This document shows, in pieces, positions 34,696 to 56,997 of a stretch of DNA of 64,000 bases. This stretch comes from a virus. A model generated the notes under the pieces. The model was not told the origin of the DNA. It saw only the letters and a list, made by a program, of their open reading frames with translations, and ran no database searches. The translations under genes and the position numbers were made by a program. Location of the stretch: positions 1 to 64,000 of the IMG/VR virus record IMGVR_UViG_3300024260_000006; one strand, given 5' to 3'. Position 1 is the first letter of the stretch. Each line of letters starts with the position of its first letter.

Positions 34696-34983
34696 TTAAT
34701 AATTAGTGAATAATTCAAGTTGTTTTTTAAAATTAATTCCATTATTATAGTGTTTATTCATATTATACTTTTTCAATAATTGACGTTTATATTTATTTGC
34801 TTCAGGTTTAGTTTCAAACTCCTTGTAATCAAGTTTTGGAAACGTTTTACCCCTATCAGGATCATACTCATCATAGTTAGATGATGTATATTTCTGAACA
34901 TATACACTAAATTTATTAGCTTCATTCAACTTCTGAATTTCTTCTTTGATGATTTTTCTTAATTTTGATTCTGTTAATTTCAT
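34696..34983 (-). CDS. tagged accessory protein (capsid-targeting-like N-terminus)
   Basis: 95 residues from the ATG at 34983, which has AGGGGG 7 bases before it; an upstream reading to 35028 lacks such a site. Residues 1-21 are the tag MKLTESKLRKIIKEEIQKLN plus E. After it comes ANKFSVYVQKYTSSN and a Lys/Tyr-rich domain of about 70 residues without a known motif. If cut after L-N-E, the mature protein starts at Ala22. Confidence 0.75.
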   Translation of the reverse strand: MKLTESKLRKIIKEEIQKLNEANKFSVYVQKYTSSNYDEYDPDRGKTFPKLDYKEFETKPEANKYKRQLLKKYNMNKHYNNGINFKKQLELFTNY

Positions 34984-34996
34984 ACTATACCCCCTA

Positions 34997-35278
34997 TTAA
35001 AATTTCTGTTTGTATACTGACCATGCACCTTTTTTAATCCAATAATCTACTTCAGATTTATTATAATGTACTTGTTTTCCAGTTGGCTTTTTTGTCTTAT
35101 AATCATAATATTGTACACCTATATCATCACCATCAACTGATACTATTTTTAATGTTTTATCATCTCGTTTATTATAAAAATAACGATTAGATTTTAATGG
35201 CAAATATGCTGAGTTTTCTTTCAACTTTTGAATTTCTTCTTTTATAATTTCTCTTAGTTTTGATTCTGTTAGTTTCAT
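34997..35278 (-). CDS. tagged accessory protein, small beta domain
   Basis: 93 residues. Tag variant ends KLKE at residue 21. The rest (KTLKIVSVDGDDIGVQYYDYKTKKPTGK) alternates strands and turns like a small SH3-type barrel. Function unknown. Confidence 0.72.
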   Translation of the reverse strand: MKLTESKLREIIKEEIQKLKENSAYLPLKSNRYFYNKRDDKTLKIVSVDGDDIGVQYYDYKTKKPTGKQVHYNKSEVDYWIKKGAWSVYKQKF

Positions 35279-35292
35279 ATTCTAATTTCTCC

Positions 35293-35682
35293 TTACGACA
35301 TAACAACTGTTATATCATATTTATCTAATGGATCATCAAGTGTGCCTGCACCAGCGGCTGTCATTACACCTTTTATCTTATCAGGTCTACCTCGTTTATT
35401 TGTAAGCTCTATCTCAAAGAACCAACGTTTTCTTTCCATTGGCATTGTATTGTCGTGCTTATGATTACCATAATAGGAATCTGTTATACTATAATCTAAT
35501 CCTAATGTTGAGAATTTATCAAATACTTTATGAATTCCTTGCCATGCATTGTCTCTAAAAAAGCCTTTAGTTATTGGGCCAATTTGTTTATATATTTGAT
35601 TTACTAATGTTCTCTTTATAACACCATCAGTATTAAGAGTCTCATTGATAACATTTTCTGCTAATATTGTTTTGAGTTTCAT
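35293..35682 (-). CDS. accessory protein with variant N-terminal leader
   Basis: 129 residues. The leader MKLKTILAENVINETLN differs from the common tag but holds L-A-E and I-N-E sites. The remainder has RKRWFFEIELTNKRGRPDKIKGVMTAAGAGT, a beta-rich core. It sits in line with tagged genes and so probably shares their fate. Confidence 0.65.
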   Translation of the reverse strand: MKLKTILAENVINETLNTDGVIKRTLVNQIYKQIGPITKGFFRDNAWQGIHKVFDKFSTLGLDYSITDSYYGNHKHDNTMPMERKRWFFEIELTNKRGRPDKIKGVMTAAGAGTLDDPLDKYDITVVMS

Positions 35683-35688
35683 AATATT

Positions 35689-36057
35689 TTACTCTGCTAC
35701 CCAACCACCAATAGCATATCCAAACGGCTTACCATTTGATACTATACGTACAGCCAAAGCAGGCCCATATTTTTCAGAATTATTCGTTATATAATCGAAT
35801 GCTTTTTTTCTGTCTTGTTTTGAATCTGAAAATGTTTTACCATATACAATTTCTATTCCATCAAAACTAGTCCAATTAGCACCATATGGATTTTTACCAT
35901 ATTGTTTAGCATCTTTTTTTTGCATAGTCTTAAACCATTTTTCTATTTTTGCTTCACTATTAGCATTTACAAACTGACCTAATTGTGTTGCACCTTCATT
36001 CAACTTCTGAATTTCTTCTTTGATGATTTCTCTTAATTTTGATTCTGTAAGTTTCAT
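35689..36057 (-). CDS. tagged accessory protein
   Basis: 122 residues. Tag 1-21 (REIIKEEIQKLNE), then GATQLGQFVNANSEAKIEKWFKTM and a domain ending LAVRIVSNGKPFGYAIGGWVAE. Its ATG overlaps the stop of the M15-peptidase remnant upstream. Unknown function. Confidence 0.72.
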   Translation of the reverse strand: MKLTESKLREIIKEEIQKLNEGATQLGQFVNANSEAKIEKWFKTMQKKDAKQYGKNPYGANWTSFDGIEIVYGKTFSDSKQDRKKAFDYITNNSEKYGPALAVRIVSNGKPFGYAIGGWVAE

Positions 36058-36240
36058 ATTATTACATTTCCTTTCAAAATATCACCTCTTTTAAAATGAT
36101 AATATTTTGTTATTAACTTCTTACTACCCATTGGTAATATCTTTTTGGCTACGGACACCTTATTTCGATTAATACCATTTCGTTTATAAGATATATGAAT
36201 CCATCCACTCTTTGTTGTAGAATCATAAAACTCTAATATT
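36054..36240 (-). pseudogene. truncated duplicate of the M15 peptidase C-terminus
   Basis: The minus-strand frame here reads SGWIHISYKRNGINRNKVS followed by AKKILPMGSKKLITKYYHFKR, nearly identical to the last 60 residues of the peptidase at 36684-37226. Nucleotide identity is also high. It has a stop shortly upstream and no usable start, so it is an untranslated remnant of a partial duplication lying 0.6 kb from its parent. Confidence 0.8.
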
Positions 36241-36586
36241 ATTTATATTTCTTTTCATATATTTTTTTCAATTCAAGCCACATGTTTTTATATTTGCTTG
36301 GTATTTTATCTACTGTAAAATGCCTTGAAAAACTTTTACCTGATGCTCCACTTACATAATTTGGTCCAGTGTAATACTCCATACCCTCATTGCCAATATC
36401 TTTACCCTTTATATTAATATAATATGTTATCTTTGCATCTGAGTTTATATAACCCTCAAGTATATCAACACTAGGGTTATGCTTTTTATGTGAATTAAAA
36501 TTCAGTTTAATAAATGAATTAGCTTCATTCAATTTTTGAATTTCTTCTTTGATGATCTTTCTTAATTTTGATTCTGTTAATTTCAT
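36239..36586 (-). CDS. tagged accessory protein inserted between peptidase copies
   Basis: 115 residues from the MKLTE start (36586); MNN could be added from 36595. After the tag: ANSFIKLNFNSHKKHNP and a domain with YTGPNYVSGASGKSFSRHFT. It separates the intact peptidase gene from its 3' duplicate, suggesting it arrived with the rearrangement. Confidence 0.72.
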   Translation of the reverse strand: MKLTESKLRKIIKEEIQKLNEANSFIKLNFNSHKKHNPSVDILEGYINSDAKITYYINIKGKDIGNEGMEYYTGPNYVSGASGKSFSRHFTVDKIPSKYKNMWLELKKIYEKKYK

Positions 36587-36591
36587 ATTAT

Positions 36592-36684
36592 TCATACTTT
36601 CTTTTTAAATCTAGTTACATTTCGTCTATCAACATATTCTTTATATTTTATTGGGTCTTTTAATGTATATACATAGTAATTCAT
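36592..36684 (-). CDS. 30-residue ORF resembling a GIY-YIG start
   Basis: MNYYVYTLKDPIKYKEYVDR and ten more residues. The first dozen resemble the YYVYILKDP opening of GIY-YIG homing endonucleases, but nothing of the domain follows. Its ATG overlaps the peptidase stop (TAATG), so it could be translated by coupling. It may be a remnant of a mobile endonuclease. Confidence 0.35.
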   Translation of the reverse strand: MNYYVYTLKDPIKYKEYVDRRNVTRFKKKV

Positions 36685-37226: not shown

Positions 37227-37248
37227 TGTTCTAACTCATTTACCTAAT

Positions 37249-37797: not shown

Positions 37798-37813
37798 ATT
37801 ATGACCCTTTATT

Positions 37814-38086
37814 TTAACTTATTTTAATTTTATCTTTTCGTTTTGATTTTTTCTGCAATTCAGATAATAGTTCTTCTAGAATTTCAACTTTTGCATCTTT
37901 TGTATTCCAACCTTCATCAGTGTTTTTTGCATTTTCCATTTCTGAATAATTATCAAACGATGCCTTTTCCCATTTCATATATTCCGATACAATACTGTTC
38001 CAATTAAACGAAATATTATAGAAATATTCCTCATTCAATAATTCTTCTTTGATGATCTGTCTTAGTTTTGTTTCTGTAAGTTTCAT
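37814..38086 (-). CDS. tagged accessory protein (LLNE subtype)
   Basis: 90 residues. Short tag MKLTETKLRQIIKEELLNE (1-19), then an aromatic-rich stretch EYFYNISFNWNSIVSEYMKW and charged helices. Unknown function. Confidence 0.7.
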   Translation of the reverse strand: MKLTETKLRQIIKEELLNEEYFYNISFNWNSIVSEYMKWEKASFDNYSEMENAKNTDEGWNTKDAKVEILEELLSELQKKSKRKDKIKIS

Positions 38087-38099
38087 TGTTCAACTCCTA

Positions 38100-38438: not shown

Positions 38439-38466
38439 TGTTTGCTCCTAGAAATTTAATTTTTGA

Positions 38467-38766
38467 TTACGATAATCGTTTAATATCCTTGTTAATCCAA
38501 GCCAATCTAAACTCAGCATCTTTTATCACCCCTTGATATTCCACTTTTTCCCATTTTTCTATATCTGATTGTTTCATTGCCTTTAAAGAATATTTAATCA
38601 CCCCTTGTAGTTGACTTGCCTCTTTTTTACGCATATTCAATATATGATTAGTAATACTACCTTTCATTGTTTCAAGTTCTACAATAGATTGTTTACCACC
38701 ACCTTCATTCAACTTTTGAATTTCTTCTTTGATGATTTCTCTTAGTTTTGATTCTGTTAATTTCAT
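38467..38766 (-). CDS. tagged accessory protein, helical
   Basis: 99 residues. After tag and GGG linker, the domain is two or three amphipathic helices (LETMKGSITNHILNMRKKE, YSLKAMKQSDIEKW). Lies just after the tail tube gene. Unknown function. Confidence 0.7.
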   Translation of the reverse strand: MKLTESKLREIIKEEIQKLNEGGGKQSIVELETMKGSITNHILNMRKKEASQLQGVIKYSLKAMKQSDIEKWEKVEYQGVIKDAEFRLAWINKDIKRLS

Positions 38767-38780
38767 TGTTCAACTCCTAA

Positions 38781-39269: not shown

Positions 39270-39312
39270 TATTTTTCTCCGTTTATATTATATATTTTCA
39301 TGTTATTATTCA

Positions 39313-42346: not shown

Positions 42347-42973
42347 TTAATTAAATTTATCAGCGGCTTCCAACTGTTTTATTTGTACTTCAATATCATG
42401 TAAGTATTTTTTATTGAATTTTAACATTTCTTTCGTTTTACCACCTTTATTTCCACTTAAATCTTTGATGGATTTTTCAAGTTTTGTTTTCATCTCATTT
42501 GCCACTCGTAATGCAACTGTCACTTCATCATATAATATTTCATTAACCGCATTATTATTATCTTCTTGTTCTGTTATTATTAAGTCATTCAATTTTGTAA
42601 TTCGGGTTTTCTTTATTACTAATCCTTCTGTCACCAATTCAGATTTCTTTTTCTGTTCCATTCCTTTGATGAGCTTTGCAACAAGTTTACCATTAACATC
42701 ATCATACATTTCATGTGATCTACCAACCTGACCAGTAAATTTTTTACCATTAGTCCTATCGAATTGTACCGTGCCATTTGGAGTTTCTAATTCAAATTCA
42801 CCAAATCCCATATGTTTTAATTCTGAATTTGGTAAAATACGTTGACAAAAATTTACAAAGCTACTATCAACATACCACTTTTTCCCATATTTAAAATGAT
42901 GTCCTCCACCTTCATTTAACTTTTGAATTTCTTCTTTAATTATCTCTCTTAATTTTGTTTCTGTAAGTTTCAT
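42347..42973 (-). CDS. tagged accessory protein, long helical tail
   Basis: 208 residues from the ATG at 42973; an 8-residue longer reading from 42997 exists. Tag 1-21, GGG linker, then KYGKKWYVDSSFVNFCQRIL and a C-terminal coiled-coil (VALRVANEMKTKLEKSIKDL). Further E-rich sites (VTEG, ITEQ) could be cut by the prohead protease. The gene interrupts the neck-protein block. Confidence 0.7.
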   Translation of the reverse strand: MKLTETKLREIIKEEIQKLNEGGGHHFKYGKKWYVDSSFVNFCQRILPNSELKHMGFGEFELETPNGTVQFDRTNGKKFTGQVGRSHEMYDDVNGKLVAKLIKGMEQKKKSELVTEGLVIKKTRITKLNDLIITEQEDNNNAVNEILYDEVTVALRVANEMKTKLEKSIKDLSGNKGGKTKEMLKFNKKYLHDIEVQIKQLEAADKFN

Positions 42974-43446: not shown

Positions 43447-43698
43447 TTAATACGATTTAACACCTCTAATTATACGTGATACCTCACTGACAGACTTTTG
43501 TGCGTTTTTTATTGCAGTATTGAATTTTTTACGCTCCCCATCTGATATATTAGTTGGTGGTACTATGTCCTCTAATTTTCCATAAATTTCACCCAATTCT
43601 TTCATTCCAGATTTCAATCGTAATTTTGGAATTATCTCATTCAACTTTTCAAGTTCTTCTTTGATTATCTCTTTTAATTTTGATTCTGTTAGTTTCAT
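43447..43698 (-). CDS. tagged accessory protein
   Basis: 83 residues. Tag variant MKLTESKLKEIIKEELEKLNE, then a basic helical domain (IIPKLRLKSGMKELGEIYGKL). Lies between neck genes gp13- and gp14-like. Unknown function. Confidence 0.7.
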   Translation of the reverse strand: MKLTESKLKEIIKEELEKLNEIIPKLRLKSGMKELGEIYGKLEDIVPPTNISDGERKKFNTAIKNAQKSVSEVSRIIRGVKSY

Positions 43699-45918: not shown

Positions 45919-47541
45919 TTATACAGTTTCTAGTCCATGACAGAAGATTTTACCATAGAATTCTGGTCGAACCATTTTCTTAGCATATCTTGTCATCACA
46001 CCTTTTCTTGGTGTGAAGTTCTTAGGATCATAAACTAGTGGTGACATTAACAATGGCACATATGGTGCATATACAGCTCCAGTTTCAAAGAAATTACTTC
46101 CTCTAAATCCAACCAATATAGCATTCTCTGTCATATAAGGATTCTTATAAACAGTCCATCTGTTTTTCAATGCACCAATTGCTGATACACCCATAGCGAA
46201 TTGTTCTTTTGTACCATCTGTATCAGCATGGAATCCTGGAATAGATTCGATAACTGTTGCAACAGTTGGAGAACATACTAAGAAGTTTGCACCACCACGT
46301 AATGTTAATTTATGAATGTTGTTTGACACTCTTTGAATTCGTTGTCCAAGAGTTTGATACCATTCGGCTTTCGTGTAAGCATATGCCGCTTGTGATACTG
46401 AATCACCAGCAAATGTACTTGAACTAGATACCCAATCGTAACCAACTTTAGCTGACCAATAATCAACTGTTACAGCGTCAAGCAATAACATATCAATTAT
46501 TTCCAAATCAATTTCCATTGAGATGTATTCACTCAAGATAGAAGTTAATTCAGCTTCAGCATCAACAGCGTGATATGCTGTTAAATCTTGTGCAATTTCT
46601 GGTGTCCATACAGCTTTCAACTTTCTAGTTTTAGCAATGATCGTTTGAGATTTTAACTCAAGATTGATCTCTGGAATTGCAATATCCGTTTCAGGATTGT
46701 TTGCTGTACCAGTAGATTCAAAATCACCTCTTGTAATGTCAGTAGGTTGTTTCAAGTAATCAATACTTAAACTAGCAGTTACTGCATCACCAGATGCTCC
46801 AGATACAAAGAATACAAAGTTGTTTCCTGATATCGCATGGAACTGTGATAATGATCCTTTAATGTTTCCAGTTGTTTGTACATTGTACGCTCTAATAGCT
46901 TTTTCATCAGCTCGTGGAAATGATGATTTTGGTATAGCAACCTTCCACCAGTTTCCACCAGCGGCAATCGCATTAGATTGAGATACTTCAGTATCATAAT
47001 TCCAATCATCAACACCATCAGCCGCAGATGCAGTTGTTAATGTTGTTATTGTAAGTGATGATTGAGATACAGTGTATCCATATCTACCAACACCATATAA
47101 ACCATTTACACCGTAAGGGGCACTTGATCCTGATGGAGTATTAGGTCCAGTTTTACCATAAAAAGATTGATCTGCTGTGATGTTACCTACAGTATTTCCA
47201 TATTTGAAATCTAAGTAGAATACCAATCCAGATGGTAAGTTCATCGGTTGTACTGATACAAAATCCTGTGCCGCAATGTCACTAAAGATTCTTCGTACCA
47301 ATGGTAATGCTACACCTGACCATTCTTCTGAATTAGCCGATGTTCCTGTTGAAGTTGCTTCTTGTACTAACTGTTTCGCTTGATTTTCAAGTAATACAGC
47401 CATGCTTGATTTGTCATAATCAGATTTTAGACCCTCTAATAGTCCATAACCATCCCATTTGTCAACCAATTCTCGTGCAACATCAACCATTTTTCGTGTT
47501 TCTGTTAAGCCTTTTAAAGCTTCATTTAATTGTTGTCTCAT
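45919..47541 (-). CDS. 23: major capsid protein (gp23)
   Basis: 540 residues (T4 gp23 521). The N-terminal 65 residues are a propeptide-like helix region (MRQQLNEALKGLTETRK, LLENQAKQLVQEATSTG), with possible cuts after QLNE and near LVQE. RRIFSDIAAQDFVSVQPMNLPSGLVFYLDFKYG is the gp23 signature, and the C-terminal FTPRKGVMTRYAKKMVRPEFYGKI is typical. It forms the head hexamers. A separate gp24 vertex gene was not found here. Confidence 0.95.
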   Translation of the reverse strand: MRQQLNEALKGLTETRKMVDVARELVDKWDGYGLLEGLKSDYDKSSMAVLLENQAKQLVQEATSTGTSANSEEWSGVALPLVRRIFSDIAAQDFVSVQPMNLPSGLVFYLDFKYGNTVGNITADQSFYGKTGPNTPSGSSAPYGVNGLYGVGRYGYTVSQSSLTITTLTTASAADGVDDWNYDTEVSQSNAIAAGGNWWKVAIPKSSFPRADEKAIRAYNVQTTGNIKGSLSQFHAISGNNFVFFVSGASGDAVTASLSIDYLKQPTDITRGDFESTGTANNPETDIAIPEINLELKSQTIIAKTRKLKAVWTPEIAQDLTAYHAVDAEAELTSILSEYISMEIDLEIIDMLLLDAVTVDYWSAKVGYDWVSSSSTFAGDSVSQAAYAYTKAEWYQTLGQRIQRVSNNIHKLTLRGGANFLVCSPTVATVIESIPGFHADTDGTKEQFAMGVSAIGALKNRWTVYKNPYMTENAILVGFRGSNFFETGAVYAPYVPLLMSPLVYDPKNFTPRKGVMTRYAKKMVRPEFYGKIFCHGLETV

Positions 47542-47567: not shown

Positions 47568-48548
47568 TTAACTAATAATACCAGCTAGCTTTTTAAATCT
47601 TTTAGCTATCTCTGATGTTTCGTTAATTATTTCTTCACTTTTTTTAGATTTTGTAGATTTTGTTTTTCTAGATGATCCACCTGGAAGTACATGTTCTTTC
47701 AAAGATTTCTTTCTATCGATAGATGTATTTTTCTTATACGATTCTAACAATACTGAATATGCTAACTTAATCTCACGAGTTGTATTTGTTCTATCGAACG
47801 TTTCAACAACTTGCATTTTTGAATCTTTATCCAAATTAAACATTTGAAATACTTTGTTAGTATATAAAAGTTTTGCATTCAACATGTTAATCTCATGCAA
47901 TTTATCTTTTAAGAATACAACAGCTTCCTTATGTTCTTCTAATTCAGATTCTAATTCAGTGTATTTAGTTTTAAGCTCTTCAAGTTCTTCTTCGTCATCT
48001 TCTTCATCGTCATCGGAATAATCCATATCTTCGTCATCTTCTTCTTTGAATAAGTTTTCGTCAATATCATATTCTTCTTCATCTTCGTCATCGTCAGAAT
48101 ATTCATCTTCGTCTTCTTCTTCATTAATGTCCTCATCAACTTCTTCTTCATCATCTAAGTCTGCATTTACATTATCGATTTCAGCATCTAATTCATCGTC
48201 ATCGGAATATTCTTCGTCATCTTCTTCATTAATGTCTTCATCAGCATCTTCATCGATGTCTTCATCAATGTCTTCATCAACTTCTTCATCAACTTCTTCG
48301 TCAACTTCTTCATCAACTTCTTCATCAACGTCCTCGTCAACATCTTCGTCGAATGATTCCTCATCTTCATCCTCATCACCCATTTCATCTTCATAATCTT
48401 CATCGTCATCTTCTTCTCTCAATTTAGTTGATAAGATAGATCGTAAGTGTGGTTCAAATGCTTCTTGTAATTGCATCTTTGCGTTTTCTAAAGCAACGGC
48501 TTTTATTGATTTTGCATCGGCGATTGCTTCCTTTAATATGTCACTCAT
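47568..48548 (-). CDS. 22: prohead core scaffold protein (gp22)
   Basis: 326 residues from the ATG at 48548, preceded by CAGGAGA; the upstream start at 48593 has no such site. MSDILKEAIADAKSIKAVALENAKMQLQEAFEPHLRSILSTKLREE is the gp22 start of marine T4-types, with the L-Q-E and A cut site. Residues about 45-200 are a very acidic Asp/Glu repeat. A coiled-coil of 200-260 and a basic end (RKTKSTKSKKSEEI) follow. It builds the core that the tagged proteins may bind. Confidence 0.85.
   Translation of the reverse strand: MSDILKEAIADAKSIKAVALENAKMQLQEAFEPHLRSILSTKLREEDDDEDYEDEMGDEDEDEESFDEDVDEDVDEEVDEEVDEEVDEEVDEDIDEDIDEDADEDINEEDDEEYSDDDELDAEIDNVNADLDDEEEVDEDINEEEDEDEYSDDDEDEEEYDIDENLFKEEDDEDMDYSDDDEEDDEEELEELKTKYTELESELEEHKEAVVFLKDKLHEINMLNAKLLYTNKVFQMFNLDKDSKMQVVETFDRTNTTREIKLAYSVLLESYKKNTSIDRKKSLKEHVLPGGSSRKTKSTKSKKSEEIINETSEIAKRFKKLAGIIS
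48234..48351 (-). repeat. 12-base tandem repeats in the scaffold gene
   Basis: Roughly ten copies of a 12-base unit of the type GTTGATGAAGAA (coding V-D-E-E / D-I-D-E). They build the acidic arm of gp22 and differ mostly by silent or Asp/Glu changes, a sign of slippage within a selected acidic tract. Confidence 0.85.
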
Positions 48549-48584
48549 ATTCGTGTTCTCCTGATTCTTTATATATCTTGGAAG

Positions 48585-48654
48585 TACAATCATTCGGTTG
48601 GATTGTAATGGTATGTTTTTATGTCTTTAGACACCGTATAAGGTACAACGGTGT
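48585..48654 (-). other. two stem-loops in the gene 22 leader
   Basis: TACAATC/GATTGTA (48585-48591 with 48601-48607) and ACACCGT/ACGGTGT (48631-48637 with 48648-48654). Both lie between the promoter-like site and the gene 22 ATG, in the untranslated leader. They may affect mRNA stability or translation of the abundant scaffold. Confidence 0.45.
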
Positions 48655-48797: not shown

Positions 48798-49682
48798 TTA
48801 GCTGTTCATCCACTTATATTCCGATACCCAACGATCAAGGTCCTTTATCATAGCTCGAATTTGCTTCATTCCTTTTGAATTATCAGACGGATCAATATAT
48901 CTAGATGTTAATGCTCTAATTTCTTTTTGTCCAAAAAGTTGATGGGGTCCTCTCCTTTTCCACGATGCGTCTAATTTCTTTGTAACGGCTCTTATATCTC
49001 GTAGTACAGCTTTTGGGTCAGCAGTTTGGTTCAATTTTTGAATTTCTTCTTTAATAAATTTTCTCAATTTTGACTCTGTAATTTTCACTGTTGATTCATT
49101 TCTACCTTTGGTTGACCGACCTTTATTATACTCAGGGTCAAGCTTTCCCATCCTAATTAAAATATCTCTTAACATTTCTCTATCAACTGAATCATATCCA
49201 ATTTCAAAATTTGGTTTCTTTTTTAATAATACTGAATACGCCGCTTTTATATCGTTCACTTTTAGAATTCTTTTCTTTTTATCTGGATAAACTCCTTTTG
49301 GCCCATAAAAACCATTCATATATTTAACAAATTCTTTTAATTCTGATTCTATAAAATTCATTTTTGACTCTTTTTTTAGTCTACTTTTTTCTCGTCTACC
49401 ACGATTTTTAGACTCTGCTTCAAATCCTGTTATTTTTCCTTTTTTATGTGATGCATCTTTACAGTCACCATTTCCATACGTGCCTTTATCTCTGTTATAT
49501 TTATTTAATTCAGCTCTATATTTCTTTGATTTATCAGATGATTGAAATTTCTTATATTCATCTTTATAATCACGTTTAGCTTTTTCATCCAAACTAAATA
49601 ATTTATCCTTATCTGACTTACTCACTTTTTGACGTTTTTTACCTATTTGACTTTGTTTTGTTATATTGAATATATTTTTCAT
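48798..49682 (-). CDS. three-module protein with an internal tag
   Basis: 294 residues. Module 1 (1-107) is Lys-rich with GDCKDASHKKGKITGFEAESKNRGRR. Module 2 (108-198) reads MNFIESELKEFVKYMNGFYG and has VNDIKAAYSVLLKKKPNFE. Module 3 begins with VKITESKLRKFIKEEIQKLN, the common tag with GTG as its first codon (49088), then ADPKAVLRDIRAVTKKLDASWKR. It may be a fusion of three cargo genes, or the GTG may be an independent start. The tag here ends LNQ, so a protease cut is less certain. Confidence 0.65.
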   Translation of the reverse strand: MKNIFNITKQSQIGKKRQKVSKSDKDKLFSLDEKAKRDYKDEYKKFQSSDKSKKYRAELNKYNRDKGTYGNGDCKDASHKKGKITGFEAESKNRGRREKSRLKKESKMNFIESELKEFVKYMNGFYGPKGVYPDKKKRILKVNDIKAAYSVLLKKKPNFEIGYDSVDREMLRDILIRMGKLDPEYNKGRSTKGRNESTVKITESKLRKFIKEEIQKLNQTADPKAVLRDIRAVTKKLDASWKRRGPHQLFGQKEIRALTSRYIDPSDNSKGMKQIRAMIKDLDRWVSEYKWMNS

Positions 49683-50011: not shown

Positions 50012-50284
50012 TTATTTCTTTACCATACTCCAATATAAATTTGCAAGTTGATTTATTTTTAATTTATTTAATTTTACCTTCATTGGGTCTTTGACTTTAT
50101 TCCACACCAACATAATTCCGTTAGCTGTTTGAGCATCTACTAATACTCCATTTATCTTTTGTGCTTGATGATTATCCACAATAGATTTCACTTTCATCAA
50201 TACATCTGACATTTTCACTTCTTCATTCAATTTTTGAATTTCTTCTTTGATAAGTTTTCTTAATCTTGATTCTGTTAATTTCAT
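50012..50284 (-). CDS. tagged accessory protein
   Basis: 90 residues. Tag MKLTESRLRKLIKEEIQKLN with E, then EVKMSDVLMKVKSIVDNHQAQ and INGVLVDAQTANGIMLVWNKV, a mixed helix/strand domain. Unknown function. Confidence 0.72.
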   Translation of the reverse strand: MKLTESRLRKLIKEEIQKLNEEVKMSDVLMKVKSIVDNHQAQKINGVLVDAQTANGIMLVWNKVKDPMKVKLNKLKINQLANLYWSMVKK

Positions 50285-50295: not shown

Positions 50296-50634
50296 TTATC
50301 TAGTTTTATTCAATTTCAATTTAATACTATTGACATTTTTTCGTGATTGAGCTATATCAAATTTATTACCTCTATGCTCCGTACGTTGTAATCCTTTGTA
50401 ATGCCAACCTAACTGCCATGCCCAATTTTTATCCACATTTGTATACCCATGACGCTTATTATTCCAACCATCCATGAAGGTATCAAAAACTTCAGTGTCT
50501 GGATTCTTAACCTTTAATGATTTGAGAATATCAGCTTTTGGTTTTGGTGGTTTATAATCCAGATCATATTTTTCATTCAACTTTTGAATTTCTTCTTTAA
50601 TAATTTTTCTTAATCTTGATTCTGTTAATTTCAT
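50296..50634 (-). CDS. tagged accessory protein
   Basis: 112 residues. After the tag: KYDLDYKPPKPKADIL and VFDTFMDGWNNKRHGYTNVDKNWAWQLGWHYKGLQ, a Trp-rich domain. Its composition suggests a nucleic acid- or ligand-binding surface. Unknown function. Confidence 0.72.
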   Translation of the reverse strand: MKLTESRLRKIIKEEIQKLNEKYDLDYKPPKPKADILKSLKVKNPDTEVFDTFMDGWNNKRHGYTNVDKNWAWQLGWHYKGLQRTEHRGNKFDIAQSRKNVNSIKLKLNKTR

Positions 50635-50648: not shown

Positions 50649-50951
50649 TTACAGTTTCATATCCTTTTCATATTTTTTAATATCATTAAGAGACAACCAC
50701 TCTGGTTTTTTCTTCAATTTATCATGAATTGCATACATATATTTTATATGGTCTTTTCCACCCCAAAGGTTTCTGATACTTCGACCTCCAAACCCTAAAT
50801 AATATTCACAATCTTGTTGCAGTCTACTCAACAATTTATATAAAAATGTCGGATCTAATGAAATCCCCGACATATCCAATTTTTCTACTAAATTCAATTT
50901 TTGAATTTCTTCTTTAATAATTTTTCTTAATCTTGATTCTGTTAATTTCAT
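50649..50951 (-). CDS. tagged protein with LPD11-like domain
   Basis: 100 residues. After the tag (ends KLNLVE) the domain reads LYKLLSRLQQDCEYYLGFGG, then LWGGKDHIKYMYAIHDKLKKKPEWLSLNDIKKYE. This matches my memory of the large polyvalent protein-associated domain LPD11 (LLSRLxxDC-YYLG-G-R...LW...KPEWL...I..Y). Polyvalent proteins are known to be injected with phage or plasmid DNA, which fits a head-cargo role. Confidence 0.65.
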   Translation of the reverse strand: MKLTESRLRKIIKEEIQKLNLVEKLDMSGISLDPTFLYKLLSRLQQDCEYYLGFGGRSIRNLWGGKDHIKYMYAIHDKLKKKPEWLSLNDIKKYEKDMKL

Positions 50952-51418
50952 AATTTTATTCCTAACTTTTCCAATCTTCTTTTTATTATTGATCTAACAT
51001 CAACATTTGGATTAGAGCCATACTTGACATCATCAAGTTCATCCCATAATCCATCATCAGAAAATGGTAATTTATTCATTGCATCATCAACTGTCATTTT
51101 CTTTTTTAATAATAATCTCAATTCTGATTTAGCATCTTCAACAGTATCGGGATTGTGTGAAAATATATCACCATTATAAGAATCATTCAACTTTTGAATT
51201 TCTTCTTTAATTAATTTTCTTAATCTTGATTCTGTTAATTTCATATTTTTATTTTCCTTAACTTCTTCTGTTTTTGGTATGCGAAACGTCACTATTTTTT
51301 TACCATTTATCGTTGGCATTCCATGCTCATCTTCTGATATAGTTTTTATTACTACTTTTTTATTTTTCCACTTTCCCATAAGAATTGTGTCACCAATTTT
51401 CACATCAATCTTTATCAT
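50948..51418 (-). CDS. fused accessory protein with internal tag
   Basis: 156 residues. Residues 1-58 (IKIGDTILMGKWKNKKVVIK style beta module) are followed by KENKN and then the tag MKLTESRLRKLIKEEIQKLN and a second domain. The bases coding KENKN include AAGGAAA 10 bases before the tag ATG (51244), so the tagged half could be translated alone. The same KENKN junction occurs in the kinase gene at 55786. Confidence 0.7.
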   Translation of the reverse strand: MIKIDVKIGDTILMGKWKNKKVVIKTISEDEHGMPTINGKKIVTFRIPKTEEVKENKNMKLTESRLRKLIKEEIQKLNDSYNGDIFSHNPDTVEDAKSELRLLLKKKMTVDDAMNKLPFSDDGLWDELDDVKYGSNPNVDVRSIIKRRLEKLGIKL

Positions 51419-51424
51419 TTTAAA

Positions 51425-51790
51425 TTACCAATCCCAACCCAATTGTGATTGTGTTCGTGCGAAGTTTTCCATAGCCTCATCTGGTGTAAATGTTTTCATA
51501 TCTTTTGGATTCCAAAATTTATTAAATTCTTTAATTGGCATTCCTTTTTTCGCCCATTTTGTCATACCCAATACCATCATTTGCCAATCTTTTACTATAT
51601 TACCATCAACAACCCATGCATGTTTATATCGCTTACCTTTACTAATCCATTCATTTTGAACTGTACCATATACTATTTTGATCTTTTTACTACCAAGATT
51701 TTTATATGCAGTTTTAAATGCATAAGATACACATTCACCACATGCTATTGTTGATGCTTCATTTAATAATATATTCTTTAATTTTATCAC
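51425..51790 (-). CDS. leader-bearing Cys-His-Asp peptidase-like protein
   Basis: 121 residues. Variant leader MIKLKNILLNE then AS. The domain has ACGECVSYAFKTA (Cys) and GKRYKHAWVVDGNIVKDWQ (His and Asp), as in transglutaminase-like or NlpC/P60-like peptidases. It may act inside the head or on host protein after entry. Cut after LLNE would leave Ala as the first residue. Confidence 0.6.
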   Translation of the reverse strand: MIKLKNILLNEASTIACGECVSYAFKTAYKNLGSKKIKIVYGTVQNEWISKGKRYKHAWVVDGNIVKDWQMMVLGMTKWAKKGMPIKEFNKFWNPKDMKTFTPDEAMENFARTQSQLGWDW

Positions 51791-52528
51791 CTAACCATTT
51801 CTGGAATTTCCAATTGAATCTCCATATGCAATTGATAATGGTAATAATTTTCTTATCGGTAAATCAATTGTCAATACATTCACTTTCATATCAGGGTTCA
51901 TTAATAAAGCAGATAACCATCTGTGATGTCCATCTATTATATACAAATCCTCACTTGCAATAAAAAATGTCTGAGATACTAAAAATTTTGTTGATCCTTT
52001 AACACCAAATTTTTTCATTGGTTCTACTATTTTACTAAAATATATTTGCTTTTGAATTGGTTTTAATTTTTTTGCTGATACCTGTCTTATAGATACACTA
52101 ATCACATCATCACTTTTTTCACCATCTTTTAATCCACGCTCTAAAAAATCACGAGCCTCTCCACCTTTTAATCCACTTGGAAATGGGTTCTTTCCACTAA
52201 AAGTTTTAGAAAATGGTTTAACAACATCAATATATCCCTTTTCCAATTTACGTTGAAATTCTTTTACATCATTATCATTAATAACGGGCATATCTTTACG
52301 TTTTGTTTTACCCAACGATGCTTTTTTTGCCGCAAAGTTAAAATTCTTATCAAAGTTGGTAATTTCACTAATATCCCAACCCTTTTTCTTTGCAAACGCA
52401 CGAGCAGTATCAGGTTTTGTAGAAGCTATTTCCAATGTCCCAGCACTTTGTCCACCTTCAATTTTTTCATTCAGTCTTTGAATTTCTTCTCGAATGAGTT
52501 TTCTTAATTTCGATTCTACTAATTTCAT
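51791..52528 (-). CDS. tagged protein with ParB/Srx-like nuclease-ATPase fold
   Basis: 245 residues. Tag MKLVESKLRKLIREEIQRLN plus E. After a basic spacer, VSIRQVSAKKLKPIQKQIYFSKI then FIASEDLYIIDGHHRWLSALLMNPDMKV is the ParB N-domain pattern (V-x-x-x-L-x-P-x-Q, then D-G-x-H-R-x-x-A). It may bind CTP or ATP and act on DNA or protein. It is the largest tagged protein with a recognisable domain. Confidence 0.7.
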   Translation of the reverse strand: MKLVESKLRKLIREEIQRLNEKIEGGQSAGTLEIASTKPDTARAFAKKKGWDISEITNFDKNFNFAAKKASLGKTKRKDMPVINDNDVKEFQRKLEKGYIDVVKPFSKTFSGKNPFPSGLKGGEARDFLERGLKDGEKSDDVISVSIRQVSAKKLKPIQKQIYFSKIVEPMKKFGVKGSTKFLVSQTFFIASEDLYIIDGHHRWLSALLMNPDMKVNVLTIDLPIRKLLPLSIAYGDSIGNSRNG

Positions 52529-52543
52529 TTTCTATATCTCCAA

Positions 52544-52822
52544 TTAATAATCAGTAGCATTCTTTTCTTTGATTGCTCTATATTTTTCCTTTAGTTTTCC
52601 GTAATTTCGTAATTCTCTAAGTTTCTCAGATTTCTTTTTATAGTATGATTTTTTCTTAATATCAATCATCAGTCCACTCTCTTTTACCATTCGCTTAAAA
52701 TCACTCAATGCCCTACTGATATTGCCATTGTATACATGTACAGACAATCCAGTGAACTCCATAGTTTGTTTCTTTCGTCTGTTGTTGTTATGATTGTGAT
52801 TTCTTTTCTTATGTTTTTTCAT
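52544..52822 (-). CDS. phage ribosomal protein bS21-like
   Basis: 92 residues. After a basic Asn/His/Lys leader of 20 residues comes LSVHVYNGNISRALSDFKRM then VKESGLMIDIKKKSYYKKKSEKLRE, the bS21 order (x-V-x-x-x-x-x-x-x-AL-x-x-F-KR-x-x-x-x-x-G-x-x-x-x-x-R-x-x-x-Y). bS21 sits by the anti-Shine-Dalgarno of 16S rRNA, and phage copies may tune initiation. SD AGAGGAA is right before the start. It lies inside the tagged bank but has no tag itself. Confidence 0.75.
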   Translation of the reverse strand: MKKHKKRNHNHNNNRRKKQTMEFTGLSVHVYNGNISRALSDFKRMVKESGLMIDIKKKSYYKKKSEKLRELRNYGKLKEKYRAIKEKNATDY

Positions 52823-52841
52823 TATTCCTCTTGTTTATGTC

Positions 52842-53219
52842 TTAAAATTGTATCTTTTGACCTTCTGATCGATAACCTTTTTTGATTGTTTTAATTACCC
52901 ATTGGAACATATACTTAATATCTTCTGTCATATCTTCTCGTTTCCAACTAAATCGTTCCTTTTTGAGTTTTTTACTATTATATGGTTCTTTATAGCTAAA
53001 AAATATAAAATTACCTTTCAGTGTAATCAATTCAAAATCATATACTTCTTCCCAAGTACTATCTGTTTCAATTGCTGATATATTGTCTTTTTGTGATTTT
53101 TTGATATATTTATTTGCAAGGTCCATTTTTTTCTTTAATGATTTTTCAGTCCAACTTTCATTTAAATTTTGAATCTCTTCTTTAATGATTTGTCTTAATT
53201 TTGATTCTGTAAGTTTCAT
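52842..53219 (-). CDS. tagged accessory protein
   Basis: 125 residues from ATG 53219; a longer reading to 53249 overlaps the previous gene. Tag with variant ending NLNE, then SWTEKSLKKKMDLANKYIKK and FELITLKGNFIFFSYKEPYN with a Trp/Phe-rich end. Unknown function. Confidence 0.7.
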   Translation of the reverse strand: MKLTESKLRQIIKEEIQNLNESWTEKSLKKKMDLANKYIKKSQKDNISAIETDSTWEEVYDFELITLKGNFIFFSYKEPYNSKKLKKERFSWKREDMTEDIKYMFQWVIKTIKKGYRSEGQKIQF

Positions 53220-53221
53220 TT

Positions 53222-53536
53222 TTATATTGCTCCCCACACTTCTTTCCAATTTTCAATTTTTTGTTTTAATTGAGCCTTTAAATGAAGATCATCAACATTA
53301 CGTCGTAACGTTAATAGTTCGGGTGGTGAATGTCCAAAATACTCATTAATATCATGTATTGCAATATAAAATTTATATAATTTCTTATTTTTCAATATAT
53401 CATTTGCAATTATAGCTCGTGCTTTAGTATGATTATTATGTTTTGTATAATTTTTAATTTTTGATATCATTGATGCATCTACTGTAGTATTAGATTCAGT
53501 TAATACTTCATTTTGAATAAGTTTTACTAATTTCAT
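53222..53536 (-). CDS. accessory protein with variant leader
   Basis: 104 residues from MKLVKLIQNEVLTESN (ATG 53536). The leader ends L-T-E before Ser. The rest is helical with many His/Lys residues (IKNYTKHNNHTKARAI, IHDINEYFGHSPPELL). Unknown function. Confidence 0.65.
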   Translation of the reverse strand: MKLVKLIQNEVLTESNTTVDASMISKIKNYTKHNNHTKARAIIANDILKNKKLYKFYIAIHDINEYFGHSPPELLTLRRNVDDLHLKAQLKQKIENWKEVWGAI

Positions 53537-53540
53537 AATT

Positions 53541-53822
53541 TTATGTCTCCACACTCCTGAACCAAAGTTTTTCATTTTGATTATATTTCTTAAATATACC
53601 ATCTACTTTTTTTCGAAGCATTTTCAAATCCTTCGTAATTTCTTTTGCTTGTGAATGTCCTTCATCATCACCTGAAAAATTCTCTGAATTTACTGCTGAA
53701 ATTGTATCACGTATTAATTCATTTATATGATATCGTGCATTTTCTAAAGTGCCTATATCACCACCTTCTTTCAATAGTTCTTCTTTAATGAGTTTTCTTA
53801 ATTTTGATTCTGTTAGTTTCAT
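53541..53822 (-). CDS. tagged accessory protein (short tag)
   Basis: 93 residues from ATG 53822. Tag MKLTESKLRKLIKEELLKEGG, then a helical domain (ARYHINELIRDTISAVN, EITKDLKMLRKKVDGIFKK). Unknown function. Confidence 0.7.
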   Translation of the reverse strand: MKLTESKLRKLIKEELLKEGGDIGTLENARYHINELIRDTISAVNSENFSGDDEGHSQAKEITKDLKMLRKKVDGIFKKYNQNEKLWFRSVET

Positions 53823-53823
53823 T

Positions 53824-54114
53824 TTACATATACCCCACTGCGATCTGACCAACCACTAAATCAGCCCCATCTGCATATTTTTTATTTATAATTACAATCT
53901 TCTTACCTTTATATTTTATAGTATAATGTGCCTCTGGTCGTAATGAAAAATCAACATTATTTTTACCAAATTTTGATTTTAAATCATCACCCATGTTCAT
54001 CAATGATTTAGATTTTGCTATATTACCTATAAACGATAAAGTTGAATCAGTTTCATTCAACTGATGAAGATATTCTCGAATAAGTTTTCTTAGTTTTGTT
54101 TCTGTTAATTTCAT
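53824..54114 (-). CDS. tagged accessory protein
   Basis: 96 residues. Tag diverged: MKLTETKLRKLIREYLHQLN with E. The remainder has KYKGKKIVIINKKYADGADLVVGQIAVGYM, a small strand-rich unit. Unknown function. Confidence 0.7.
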   Translation of the reverse strand: MKLTETKLRKLIREYLHQLNETDSTLSFIGNIAKSKSLMNMGDDLKSKFGKNNVDFSLRPEAHYTIKYKGKKIVIINKKYADGADLVVGQIAVGYM

Positions 54115-54140
54115 ATTTTTATTTCCAATTCTTTATATAT

Positions 54141-54623
54141 TTAATGTAGGTATCCTTTATTTCTTTTATATTTACCAACTTTATTCTTTCCAGCATATTG
54201 TTGATCTTTAGGTTTAAAGCGGTCCCGAGCTTCATAATCAATGATCCACGTGATAAAATACATTTTCCAACCCTCAATATCTTTACCCTTTAACGCTGAA
54301 CTAGTAAATTCTTTAAATCCTACGTCTTTAGGTCCACCCTTAGGTCCAATAAGGAATTTTTGAAATTTTATAGCATCACCCTTTTTCCACGGTTTAGTTG
54401 AATATACTTTAAATCGCATATCATAGTCAAAAATACCAGATGCCATTTTTACAGTAAATTTATATACATCTGGAAATTTCAGTTGTATATCTGAATCTGA
54501 TCGATTTTTAGATTTATGATCATAAAAATCAGCATCTGAATATTTTTTAGCACGAGGATAGCCAACTTCTTTTAACAACTCTTCTCGAATAAGTTTTCTT
54601 AATTTTGATTCTGTTAGTTTCAT
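54141..54623 (-). CDS. tagged accessory protein
   Basis: 160 residues. Short tag ending LLKE, then GYPRAKKYSDADFYDHKSKN and a mixed domain FTVKMASGIFDYDMRFKVYST, WKMYFITWIIDYEARD; basic end. Possibly an enzyme by size. Unknown function. Confidence 0.7.
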   Translation of the reverse strand: MKLTESKLRKLIREELLKEVGYPRAKKYSDADFYDHKSKNRSDSDIQLKFPDVYKFTVKMASGIFDYDMRFKVYSTKPWKKGDAIKFQKFLIGPKGGPKDVGFKEFTSSALKGKDIEGWKMYFITWIIDYEARDRFKPKDQQYAGKNKVGKYKRNKGYLH

Positions 54624-54635
54624 TTTATTTCTTTA

Positions 54636-54935
54636 TCATCCTTTCATCATACCTTTAAGTTCTTTTTTAATCATCTTCGCTTTTTCACCACGCCAAGTTG
54701 ATGCATTAGATAAAAAGTATGCCACAATCGATAATCCTGAATCCATGTAATAGTTATCCTTAATTGAATCCAATGTAGACATTGCTTCTAAATATGGTTT
54801 TGCCGCATAATTTACTTTTTTCCAATCTTGTGAAATCTCACGAGCAATTTGATGTAATGGTCTATTACCTTCTATGAGAATACTTTTTATTTCTTCTTTA
54901 ATGATCTTTCTTAATTTTGTTTCTGTTAATTTCAT
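54636..54935 (-). CDS. tagged accessory protein
   Basis: 99 residues. Tag MKLTETKLRKIIKEEIKSILIE, then helical segments REISQDWKKVNYAAKPYLEAM and MDSGLSIVAYFLSNASTWRG. Unknown function. Confidence 0.7.
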   Translation of the reverse strand: MKLTETKLRKIIKEEIKSILIEGNRPLHQIAREISQDWKKVNYAAKPYLEAMSTLDSIKDNYYMDSGLSIVAYFLSNASTWRGEKAKMIKKELKGMMKG

Positions 54936-54950
54936 CTTATTAATCTCCAG

Positions 54951-55502
54951 TTAATCAGTTTCGTTTTCACCAGCATCTTTGATTGCGTCAGCTTCATCAA
55001 AGAATTTCTTTTTATTGTCACCTTTTAATTGATTTGGTGATGTGATATTATACTTTTTCATTAATGCTTTGAAGTCATCTGCATAATCCTCATTGATTTT
55101 GCCGTCATCTTCATCATCTTTTTTTAATTCTTTGATATCATAATATTTTCCCAAAGTGAATCCTATATTCTCATATAAATCAACCATTCGTTCTTGCAAT
55201 GAATGTGCATCTTTGGCAGTCTTTTTAAACTCTGTAACATGTTTATCCATCGTTTTCATATTTCGATTTATTGATACTTTGTCAAACCAATCTGCATCAG
55301 TTTCAGCCAATATATGACCTTTTGCACCATCCATAACTTCTACCAATTGAGATGCAACTTCCATAATGCTCTGTTCTCTATATATAGATTTACCTAATTC
55401 AGAATACATAGATACACTTTCCATGACTTTTTTCTTATCAATTTTTGGTTTATCGTCATCCAGTGAAAAGGATTCGTTTATTATTTTCTTTAATTTAATC
55501 AT
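54951..55502 (-). CDS. accessory protein with variant leader, helical
   Basis: 183 residues. Leader MIKLKKIINESFSLDDDK, with I-N-E, then long acidic helices (VDLYENIGFTLGKYYDIKEL). It ends in KFFDEADAIKDAGENETD. The gene overlaps its upstream neighbour by 4 bases. Unknown function. Confidence 0.6.
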   Translation of the reverse strand: MIKLKKIINESFSLDDDKPKIDKKKVMESVSMYSELGKSIYREQSIMEVASQLVEVMDGAKGHILAETDADWFDKVSINRNMKTMDKHVTEFKKTAKDAHSLQERMVDLYENIGFTLGKYYDIKELKKDDEDDGKINEDYADDFKALMKKYNITSPNQLKGDNKKKFFDEADAIKDAGENETD

Positions 55503-55789
55503 TTTGTTTCTCCGATCAATTTTCGAATTGCTTCTCTAATTGTATTTCTTAATTTTTCTTCTGATGTTTTGTGTTCCAGAAACTTCTTGGCTAGATATCG
55601 TTCTCTACCATATTTTGATTCAGTTCGTTTTCGTTTCACTGATTTTGGCATTGATTCATAATCTTCTGACATATTATTATTTACGAACCACGTCACACGT
55701 CTTACATCAGAATTATATATTTTTTTATATTTGTTTTCTTCCAATGTTTTCATCCACTTATGAACTTCTTTAATTCTTATTTTATTCAT
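55499..55789 (-). CDS. basic protein with tag-like helix at the C-terminus
   Basis: 96 residues, strongly basic. The last 24 residues read KTSEEKLRNTIREAIRKLIGE-TK, the tag pattern placed at the end rather than the start. The first 70 residues have KSVKRKRTESKYGRERYLAKK. It might bind DNA or the scaffold. It overlaps both neighbours by 4 bases. Confidence 0.6.
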   Translation of the reverse strand: MNKIRIKEVHKWMKTLEENKYKKIYNSDVRRVTWFVNNNMSEDYESMPKSVKRKRTESKYGRERYLAKKFLEHKTSEEKLRNTIREAIRKLIGETK

Positions 55790-56997
55790 CTGATTGATCC
55801 CCCTCGTTGACCTTTAACATTTGATTTTTGTGCTCCTATTCGATCAAAATTTCCTTTTCTACCACCATGTTTTTTTCTTGATATAGTTTCAATTTCTTTT
55901 GAATTTGCAATATCTTGAATCATTTTCATCTCATCTCTAGTACCTTTTACTTTACCTGAAGATGAACTCGTAATAACATCAAAAAAATCATACGCTCCTT
56001 GTACAATATCACTCGCCATTAGTCTCTTTATTTTAAGTTCAGTTTTATTTAACATTGTTGCAAATTCAGTCACCCTATTTGCTGATAATCGCTGTGCCTC
56101 TGGTGTTGAATATGGTACAATCTCATTTAATTTTTGAATTTCTTCTCTTATAATTTTTCTTAATTTTGATTCATCCATATTCTTATTTTCTTTCCTAGTA
56201 TCTCGTTTCAATGAATATCTAACATCACTCTTTTTTACCCATTTACCATATCTTGGGTCAGCTTTACCAGACCAATCAAAAATCATTATTCTATCAATAA
56301 CACCATCTTTAGCACTACCTTCACTCTCATATGATGATATCGCATTTTTCATCTTCAATACATATCCAAGTATAACATCAGCACCTACAGTTCTACCTTG
56401 ATTCTTTCCTCTATATACATCTCGTGCAATTGAATATTTTGGATTTATTCTTAAATATATCACTGTTACATTAAACCCATCTGCTTTAATCTGTTTTATT
56501 TTTTTCAATAATGGTCCTGGGTGTGCCGCTGTAGTATCAACAATTAGAAAGTTTCCAGCTTTCTTTATTTTAGTATCAAATGTAATAGCAGATTCAGCTT
56601 TAGCAAATGATCGTATATCAAAATAATTAGTATAATATGGTGGTTTAAATGTTTTATAAAAAAATTTAATTCCTTTATCCTTATTATCATTCCACCATTT
56701 AGCAGTTATTGGATGGTCAACTTCTTTACCTTGATTTGTTGTATAATTTGCGTTTTTACTGAATTCTAATACTTCATGATCACTACTAGTACCTAATAAA
56801 TATTTATAATGATTAGTTGCAACTTCATATTGAAATTTACCAATAGTAACATCCGAATTTACTGTTTTATAACCACTAAATCCAGAGAAATATTTCTTTA
56901 TATCAGTTTCAATAAAAGTTGATTTACCAGCGGCTGGTAGTCCCATTAACACAATGCATTGTTTCTTTAAATCACTTTTAAATTCACGTAATTTCAT
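55786..56997 (-). CDS. P-loop kinase fused to an internally tagged domain
   Basis: 403 residues. MKLREFKSDLKKQCIVLMGLPAAGKSTFIETDI has Walker A GLPAAGKST near 19-27; LIVDTTAAHPG and VIYLRINPKYSIARDVYRG fit a zeta-toxin/polynucleotide kinase-type fold up to about residue 265. Then KENKNMDESKLRKIIREEIQKLN with E begins a second module of about 125 residues. A good SD (AGGAAAG) lies 11 bases before that ATG, so two products are possible. Kinase substrate unknown. Confidence 0.7.
   Translation of the reverse strand: MKLREFKSDLKKQCIVLMGLPAAGKSTFIETDIKKYFSGFSGYKTVNSDVTIGKFQYEVATNHYKYLLGTSSDHEVLEFSKNANYTTNQGKEVDHPITAKWWNDNKDKGIKFFYKTFKPPYYTNYFDIRSFAKAESAITFDTKIKKAGNFLIVDTTAAHPGPLLKKIKQIKADGFNVTVIYLRINPKYSIARDVYRGKNQGRTVGADVILGYVLKMKNAISSYESEGSAKDGVIDRIMIFDWSGKADPRYGKWVKKSDVRYSLKRDTRKENKNMDESKLRKIIREEIQKLNEIVPYSTPEAQRLSANRVTEFATMLNKTELKIKRLMASDIVQGAYDFFDVITSSSSGKVKGTRDEMKMIQDIANSKEIETISRKKHGGRKGNFDRIGAQKSNVKGQRGGSIR

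Follow-up and report, generated by a model that had tools for sequence, protein, structure and literature searches.

We identified 22 copies of one peptide tag, consensus MKLTESKLRKIIKEEIQKLNE, in a 64,000-nucleotide stretch of DNA from an uncultured T4-like virus of bacteria (positions 1 to 64,000 of IMG/VR record IMGVR_UViG_3300024260_000006; this whole stretch is hereafter the window). Most copies stand at the front of small proteins whose bodies are unrelated to one another. We consider it probable that the bank is a set of capsid-targeting propeptides that work like the capsid-targeting sequence (CTS) of T4, with a different sequence, on a larger scale and shuffled by recombination; targeting and cleavage are both predicted from sequence.

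A six-frame scan of the window placed all 22 copies on the minus strand between 34,921 and 56,184. Nineteen lie at a gene start or close to one and three lie inside genes, the same counts as in an initial annotation of the stretch. The tag begins exactly at residue 1 of the listed open reading frame (ORF) in 14 genes; in genes 34696, 36239, 42347, 52842 and 53541 the reading frame extends a little farther upstream, to a GTG, TTG or ATG start. The genes are listed here with their length in amino acids (aa) and the end of the tag, a slash preceding the residue that follows.

34696-34983, minus strand: tagged gene, 95 aa from ATG 34983 (GTG start 35028 in the ORF listing), LNE/A
34997-35278, minus strand: tagged gene, 93 aa, LKE/N
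35689-36057, minus strand: tagged gene, 122 aa, LNE/G
36239-36595, minus strand: tagged gene, 118 aa, LNE/A
37814-38086, minus strand: tagged gene, 90 aa, LLNE; tag recombinant of two tags that are separate in strain L055
38100-38438, minus strand: tagged gene, 112 aa, LLNE/A
38467-38766, minus strand: tagged gene, 99 aa, LNE/G
42347-42973, minus strand: tagged gene, 208 aa from ATG 42973, LNE/G
43447-43698, minus strand: tagged gene, 83 aa, LNE/I
45025-45348, minus strand: tagged gene, 107 aa, LKE/A
48798-49682, minus strand: internal-tag gene, 294 aa, tag at residue ~199 (GTG), ending LNQ
50012-50284, minus strand: tagged gene, 90 aa, LNE/E
50296-50634, minus strand: tagged gene, 112 aa, LNE/K
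50649-50951, minus strand: tagged gene with LPD11 body (E 1.9e-23), 100 aa, motif LVE
50948-51418, minus strand: internal-tag gene, 156 aa, tag at residue 59 (in-frame ATG), ending LND
51791-52528, minus strand: tagged gene with weak ParB-like body, 245 aa, LNE/K
52842-53219, minus strand: tagged gene, 125 aa from ATG 53219, LNE/S
53541-53822, minus strand: tagged gene, 93 aa from ATG 53822, LLKE/G
53824-54114, minus strand: tagged gene, 96 aa, LNE/T
54141-54623, minus strand: tagged gene, 160 aa, LLKE/V
54636-54935, minus strand: tagged gene, 99 aa, LIE/G
55786-56997, minus strand: zeta-toxin/polynucleotide-kinase-like protein, 403 aa, internal tag with in-frame ATG

All 22 tags are confined to the head/tail block. 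Among 84 non-overlapping ATG-start ORFs of at least 60 aa on the coding strand, tagged ORFs account for 22 of the 42 in the block at 34.6-58.0 kb and for none of the 42 elsewhere in the window (Fisher p 5e-9). The 113.6-kb record of the same virus has all 22 tag matches at 17.4-38.7 kb. A blind comparison of N-termini across the window gave 170 similar pairs, against 3.8 in shuffles, and a cluster of 19 that comprised 18 tagged genes and the core-position gene 58983 described below. A chance origin of the similarity is excluded. Further short tags occur in three genes and, by eye, in two more:

35293-35682, minus strand: short-tag gene, MKLKTILAE; body homologue in locus L048
45363-45722, minus strand: short-tag gene, MKLKDIVIGE
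51425-51790, minus strand: short-tag gene, MIKLKNILLNE/A, GTG start (by eye)
53222-53602, minus strand: short-tag gene, MKLVKLIQNE from an in-frame ATG (by eye)
54951-55502, minus strand: short-tag gene, MIKLKKIINE/S; family that follows gp21 in relatives

In each of the three internal copies an ATG or GTG codon stands in frame, either inside the tag or right at it, and could therefore be an internal start; AGGA-like bases lie upstream in two of them. The internal placement may also be a gene-calling artefact. A parallel for a true internal tag is the family with an MPxxSKQQQ leader, which carries an internal tag-like helix in 13 relative loci (about 11 distinct).

Looking for the tag on unrelated bodies elsewhere, a check suggested in the initial annotation, revealed similar banks in other uncultured contigs, the majority of which have head or tail genes of T4 type. 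Scanning IMG/VR with the tag alignment matched 125 stretches, from which 41 loci were confirmed, seven of them from the window's virus. At least three tag-like N-termini are present in nine non-window loci (L061, L062, L063, L065, L073, L074, L083, L089, L095), and one or two in many others; L010 and L015, which were found through gp21 alone, are also tagged. Peptidase_S77 (S77), the family of the gp21 prohead protease, was matched in 11 of 27 tag contigs and in 4 of 37 control contigs (p 0.006); at lengths of at least 20 kb the figures are 7 of 17 and 4 of 37 (p 0.016). Gp23 was matched in 6 of the 27; in G003, the 19 kb upstream of its head-completion gene have no gp21, gp22 or gp23 match. 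In this set of 27, L009 represents L056, L060 and L077. Outside it are L055, L057 and L058 (window virus), L067, L069, L087 and L088 (near copies of included ones) and L075, L076, L082, L092 and L094. Controls were contigs of at least 20 kb with an arbitrary 14-base pattern (at least 120 stretches; 37 such contigs among the 80 loci listed). Neither their habitat nor their phage type was matched to that of the tag contigs, and among the 37 there is a single weak tag match, without S77. A reversed-peptide pattern (three matches) and another arbitrary pattern (none) were too rare to serve as controls.

A single 10-residue pattern, which limits the negative, gave 20 stretches and no confirmed tag in 84,980 cellular genomes. 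Short-peptide tblastn of phage records, a search of low power, returned one uncultured megaphage with weak matches, and two other made-up tag peptides gave no match at the same low power. Because short queries have low power, these searches do not establish that cultured phages lack the tag; K-like N-termini are in fact present in the cultured Flavobacterium phage immuto (host Flavobacterium sp. LMO8), as found by the blind N-terminus comparison; they stand on KNV73_gp080 (L097:8526-9284) and on a gene at L123:31525-31944.

The bodies behind the tag were described from the start as unrelated, and an all-pairs comparison of the 22 window bodies found no pair matching at E<=0.01. These were compared as a separate set because the strict pattern that defines a wider set of 98 non-redundant tagged proteins, two of them from strain L055, misses the window tags at 52528 and 56184. 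In Pfam and PHROG scans of the 98, each reported family matches one member. The LPD11 assignment of the body of gene 50649-50951 was upheld at the E-value listed above, whereas the proposed ParB-like body of 51791-52528 is a weak match (ParBc_2 E 0.089; phrog_1033 E 0.0024). The kinase-like match of 55786-56997 is moderate (E 3.5e-8). Most bodies have no homologue in the relative loci compared.

Over codons 2-16 of 21 tag copies, the ratio of nonsynonymous to synonymous differences (pN/pS) is 0.275, and synonymous differences are spread along the tag. The amino-acid sequence of the tag is under constraint. This constraint, and the occurrence of the peptide in other phages and inside longer proteins, argue against the repeat being a DNA or translation element, such as a recombination hotspot or an initiation leader, with a peptide that has no role. 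A crossover inside a tag (see below) and the GGAG/AGGA-like, ribosome-binding-site-like bases seen by eye upstream of most copies would suit an element of that kind, which we nevertheless regard as very improbable.

The tag end carries a cleavage-like pattern. The (I/L)-x-E motif that had been noticed there is present at tag residues 15-27 in 20 of the 22 window copies, the other two ending LND and LNQ. LNE or LKE is retained at the end of four tags that are two residues shorter, and in two altered tags the motif is present but displaced (LVE, LIE). Across the 98 proteins, [IL]xE lies at residues 15-27 in 72, where shuffling of the same residues gives 36 and windows taken from the bodies give 8; tags within one phage are not independent, which bears on these counts. 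[IL]xK exceeds shuffles in the window virus (16/22 vs 6.3) and not in the other contigs (16/76 vs 12.5). The residue after the motif (P1') is A, G or S in 35 of the 72, against 21% of body residues (binomial p 3e-7); after [IL]xE inside bodies it is A, G or S in 20 of 98. Nine gp23 proteins, T4 as the reference and eight from other phages, were aligned, and the sites corresponding to T4 E65 read VQE/A in the window, VSE/A in immuto, ISE/A in Microcystis phage Mel-JY01, LRE/A in G014, LKE/S in G021 and G024, and LRE/S in G025 and G027. These predicted capsid-protein sites follow the tag-end pattern, with V also allowed at the third residue before the cut (P3). The alignment puts capsid cleavage in the window at LVQE61/A and not at LNE7, so the earlier argument from a capsid protein starting MRQQLNEA does not hold.

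The window carries a T4-like head/tail set, with matches to Peptidase_S77, Gp23, Portal_T4 and tail-sheath families and a gp19-like tail tube match below the Pfam cut-off. The gp21 gene recognized in the initial annotation is confirmed by its S77 match, and by gp21 the nearest phage records are Mel-JY01 (61%) and immuto (50%). These genes, together with the MPxxSKQQQ-leader protein and the core-position protein, are the following:

45919-47541, minus strand: major capsid protein, Gp23 E 7.9e-78, predicted cleavage LVQE61/A
47568-48593, minus strand: scaffold candidate, judged from its position and from its likeness to genes at the gp22 position in immuto and Mel-JY01
57002-57436, minus strand: protein with a leader weakly DUF3008-like (E 0.024) and an internal tag-like helix, IRKFIQSVLLSE/A
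58023-58649, minus strand: gp21-type prohead protease, Peptidase_S77 E 6.2e-30
58983-59249, minus strand: core-position protein of the TTGxVxGYxTPxAF family, tag-like helices at both ends
60214-63060, minus strand: T4-type portal with intein, E 1.6e-71

The scaffold candidate matches only those two gp22-position genes; searches of Pfam and PHROG found no family for it, and BLAST found no similarity to T4 gp22.

A tag lies within 1 kb of gp21 in four of the six S77 contigs longer than 60 kb (G014, G021, G024, G025; expected 0.8, p 0.002), G021 and G024 being close relatives. When all 11 S77 contigs are included the proximity is weaker, with p between 0.003 and 0.035 depending on the distance and measure used. 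In this group of phages, the small TTGxVxGYxTPxAF protein is encoded within about 2 kb upstream of gp21 and its N-terminus is a tag-like helix, with [ILMV]xE just before the motif in 19 of 19 family members examined. In L062 and L073, whose core-position bodies are homologous, this N-terminus is the canonical tag (KVTESKLRELIKSVL.. and MKITESKLREIIREVL.., respectively). In immuto, one blind cluster contains the core-position protein, two proteins with K-like N-termini and the protein at the gp22 position, which has another annotation in the record.

Alternatively, the tag may be a core-assembly hook, its carriers being minor scaffold or core proteins that are degraded or leave the prohead, and not delivered cargo. 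The tag on the core-position protein near gp21, the immuto clustering with the gp22-position protein and the several LxE sites in the tag, as in core proteins, are consistent with this, but 22 unrelated bodies, LPD11 and kinase-like ones among them, and the gain or loss of a whole body between strains are unexpected for essential scaffold, and we think it unlikely. We find it a little less likely again that the tag helix docks on a different partner, be it the tail, a membrane or a host or phage enzyme, and is linked to the head by coincidence. Many tagged genes do lie among tail genes, from the tail tube to a gp26-like gene, in the window, G003 and G007; for the latter two, as for part of the window's bank, the tags sit between these genes, and in G026 a tag adjoins the gp26-like gene. 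Against a docking role stand the gp21 adjacency, the cleavage-site pattern and the same tag on the core-position protein.

Bodies also appear behind exchanged fronts. Gene 54951-55502 belongs to the gp21-following family (27 distinct sequences including the query), in which one body family occurs behind three kinds of front: behind short ones, MIKLKKIINE/S, MKLSKLINE/S, MGFDIRKWKRLNE/S, MKMKDILEE/A or MAKLKDLLKE/E, behind a longer helix ending VIAE/N in Mel-JY01, and, in L044-L047, behind an internal tag-like helix that follows an MPxxSKQQQ leader. Of its 19 distinct N-terminal fronts, 15 contain [IL]xE within residues 1-26. With V also accepted and residues 1-34 considered ([ILV]xE), the number is 17, the exceptions being L018 (which ends FKE) and L073. 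The MPxxSKQQQ-leader proteins (window 57002-57436 and its 13 relative loci) contain an internal helix like KVRSLIKKMVREIINE or LQELRKMVAKAIKEVLKE, mostly ending LxE, IxE, VxE or MxE. The C-terminal domain of the window protein lies behind MKLKDLITE in L015 and behind MKLTDILK.. in L062 and L070, where VNE directly precedes the domain. L073 encodes a zeta-like kinase whose P-loop is preceded by IHEILKQLIREELGLLRE/S; this kinase and its window homologue 55786 match at 24% over 208 residues (E 1e-6).

One exchange could be followed between strains. Strain L055 follows the window for 4,018 bases at 99.98% identity before diverging inside the tag of gene 37814-38086, where it has two tagged genes whose starts are 280 bases apart. 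The window gene combines the start of the first L055 tag with the end of the second and its body, and therefore lacks the first body. This is a single cassette gain or loss by crossover inside the tag, and it could have run in either direction.

Capsid targeting, the role first proposed for the tag, is well supported, though indirectly, by a gp21-type protease, the adjacency to gp21, the same tag on the core-position protein, the LxE end with A, G or S at P1', bodies swapped behind LxE-ending fronts and the confinement to the head/tail block. The proposed cut site did not stand as clearly: it is ambiguous from the sequence, because the tag also has LTE at position 5 and IKE at 14 (a motif ends at 14 in 88 of the 98). 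Other points also weigh against targeting and cleavage. Two of the 22 window tags end LND or LNQ, and outside the window virus [IL]xE was found in 52 of 76 proteins and is absent from the tested stretch in 24. The three internal tags are hard to accommodate unless translation starts at them, and many tagged genes stand among tail genes. The helix, described initially as amphipathic, is only moderately so (p about 0.1). Pfam and PHROG scans assigned no function to most bodies. There is no S77 match in 16 of the 27 tag contigs; seven of these 16 have T4-type or window-type head/tail genes (G002, G003, G006, G007, G016, G022, G026), and the parts read of G005, G008, G009, G011, G012, G015, G017, G018 and G023 (almost the entire contig for G012 and G023, and in most cases one locus of 8-20 kb) contain no clear T4-type structural gene, G008 and G009 having a weak gp6 match only. 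Contig counts are not fully independent, because G021 is closely related to G024 and G002 comes from the window's virus. Finally, the tag is no more similar in its letters to the T4 CTS than shuffles are (0.60 and 0.20), and the proposed likeness is therefore one of working and not of sequence.

If the tag is a capsid-targeting propeptide, the helix of about 20 residues would carry the small proteins into the core of the prohead, perhaps as a mimic of the helix with which the core protein encoded near gp21 begins. The gp21-type protease would cut after [IL]xE at the tag end, so that the body stays behind in the head. That the bodies are head cargo injected into the host is plausible from the analogy of T4 Ip1-3 and Alt and of P1 DarB, and from the LPD11 body. 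They may be interchangeable and would probably enter with the DNA, to act against host defenses or in early takeover. Homologous recombination between tag copies, for which one event was seen, could add, delete and re-pair cargo genes.

We give about an even chance to a broader proposal, in which uncultured aquatic T4-like phages would have a general head-address system. Interchangeable tag classes (KLTESKLRxIIKEEI.., KLKxILxE, LLFENWRxYLxE and, in immuto, FDLKKFLVENKLT..) would label core proteins, along with dozens of exchangeable cargo proteins, for prohead loading and cleavage, with tag recombination reshuffling the arsenal and a large payload in each virion. If the propeptide reading is right, the tag would be a new packaging signal and a search key by which, in each phage, many hypothetical proteins could be recognized as virion cargo, a likely reservoir of anti-defense proteins. 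The number of protein kinds in a phage head and the exchange of cargo would become testable, and the principle would be that of T4 head-protein labelling on a larger scale.

Several other shared N-termini were observed. A second bank, MKLLxENWRxYLxE, occurs on unrelated, often long proteins near the K-tag bank in L072, L074 and L089 (G012, G014, G023). Three immuto proteins (L122:1803-2318, L097:12969-13970, L097:13970-14269), one annotated as a PduO-type enzyme, have N-termini of the FDLKKFLVENKLTxNSKxLxE type. M(K/F)xGDLVK-type N-termini on other small proteins in L115/L074 (G014) and L072 (G012) perhaps reflect one fold and not a tag. Six small ORFs at 993-12769 of L103 (G003) share an MLLYxHExDYI-like N-terminus.

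Elsewhere in the window, the portal gene (60214-63060, minus strand) contains an intein with an HNH endonuclease (Intein_splicing E 1.6e-16), and a terminase frame (63932-63998, minus strand) seems by eye to start just past a second intein end (HNC). QueC, FolE, QueE and QueD and a transglycosylase-like gene were recognized by eye at 9027-13580, making 7-deazaguanine DNA modification probable; genes of this type plus DpdA are annotated in immuto. A small basic protein at 52544-52822, kept in several relatives, resembles by eye a Mel-JY01 gene near gp21 annotated as ribosomal protein S21.

A literature search of open-licence papers found no printed description of such tag banks. In T4, propeptides of 10-19 residues target internal proteins (IPs) to the core and are removed by gp21 (PMC9026906). 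The T4 proteins Ip1-3 have only the leader in common and inhibit different GmrSD enzymes; for related phages a total of at least 10 Ips is reported (PMC12373910). Our bank is like the CTS of the T4 IPs and Alt in placing a short common N-terminus with an [IL]xE end on unrelated bodies, which in T4 IPs also vary among related phages (PMC9026906, PMC12373910), and the window phage, like T4, encodes gp21 (S77), a gp20-type portal and gp23. Applied to 148 kb of T4, the blind N-terminus method grouped ipI, ipII and ipIII in a four-member cluster whose remaining member is a chance-looking ORF, with 13 pairs overall against 5.2 in shuffles. The system differs from T4 in its tag of about 20 residues, in having at least 22 carriers in one virus against three IPs, and in the location of carriers in the head/tail block, the internal copies and the same helix on the core-position protein. 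The MKLxxENWRxYLxE class of L072, L074 and L089 is somewhat nearer to the T4 CTS (shuffle fractions 0.004 to 0.095). Aspartate at position 10 of a T4 IP propeptide blocks processing while targeting is kept (PMC9026906). On that precedent, the window tag that ends LND might remain uncut and still target its protein.

LPD11 is a domain of polyvalent proteins, a share of which are predicted to be packaged (PMC5512222). One tagged body is such a domain; unlike in the multidomain polyvalent proteins, it is a single LPD11 domain of 63 residues behind the tag, with no second domain found. Phage SPN3US has two paralogues only (gp53 and gp54), is a giant phiKZ-type phage and follows an AxE or SxE rule (PMC5694885); the likeness is in a common propeptide start (identical 15-residue N-termini) on diverged head proteins that is cut by the prohead protease. 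The Dar proteins of P1, a phage of another type, have no common signal among them by BLAST according to PMC9024508. Like the address proposed for our tag, the packaging signal of DarB is N-terminal; its 30 residues package a reporter, and the P1 cargo is anti-restriction (PMC9024508).

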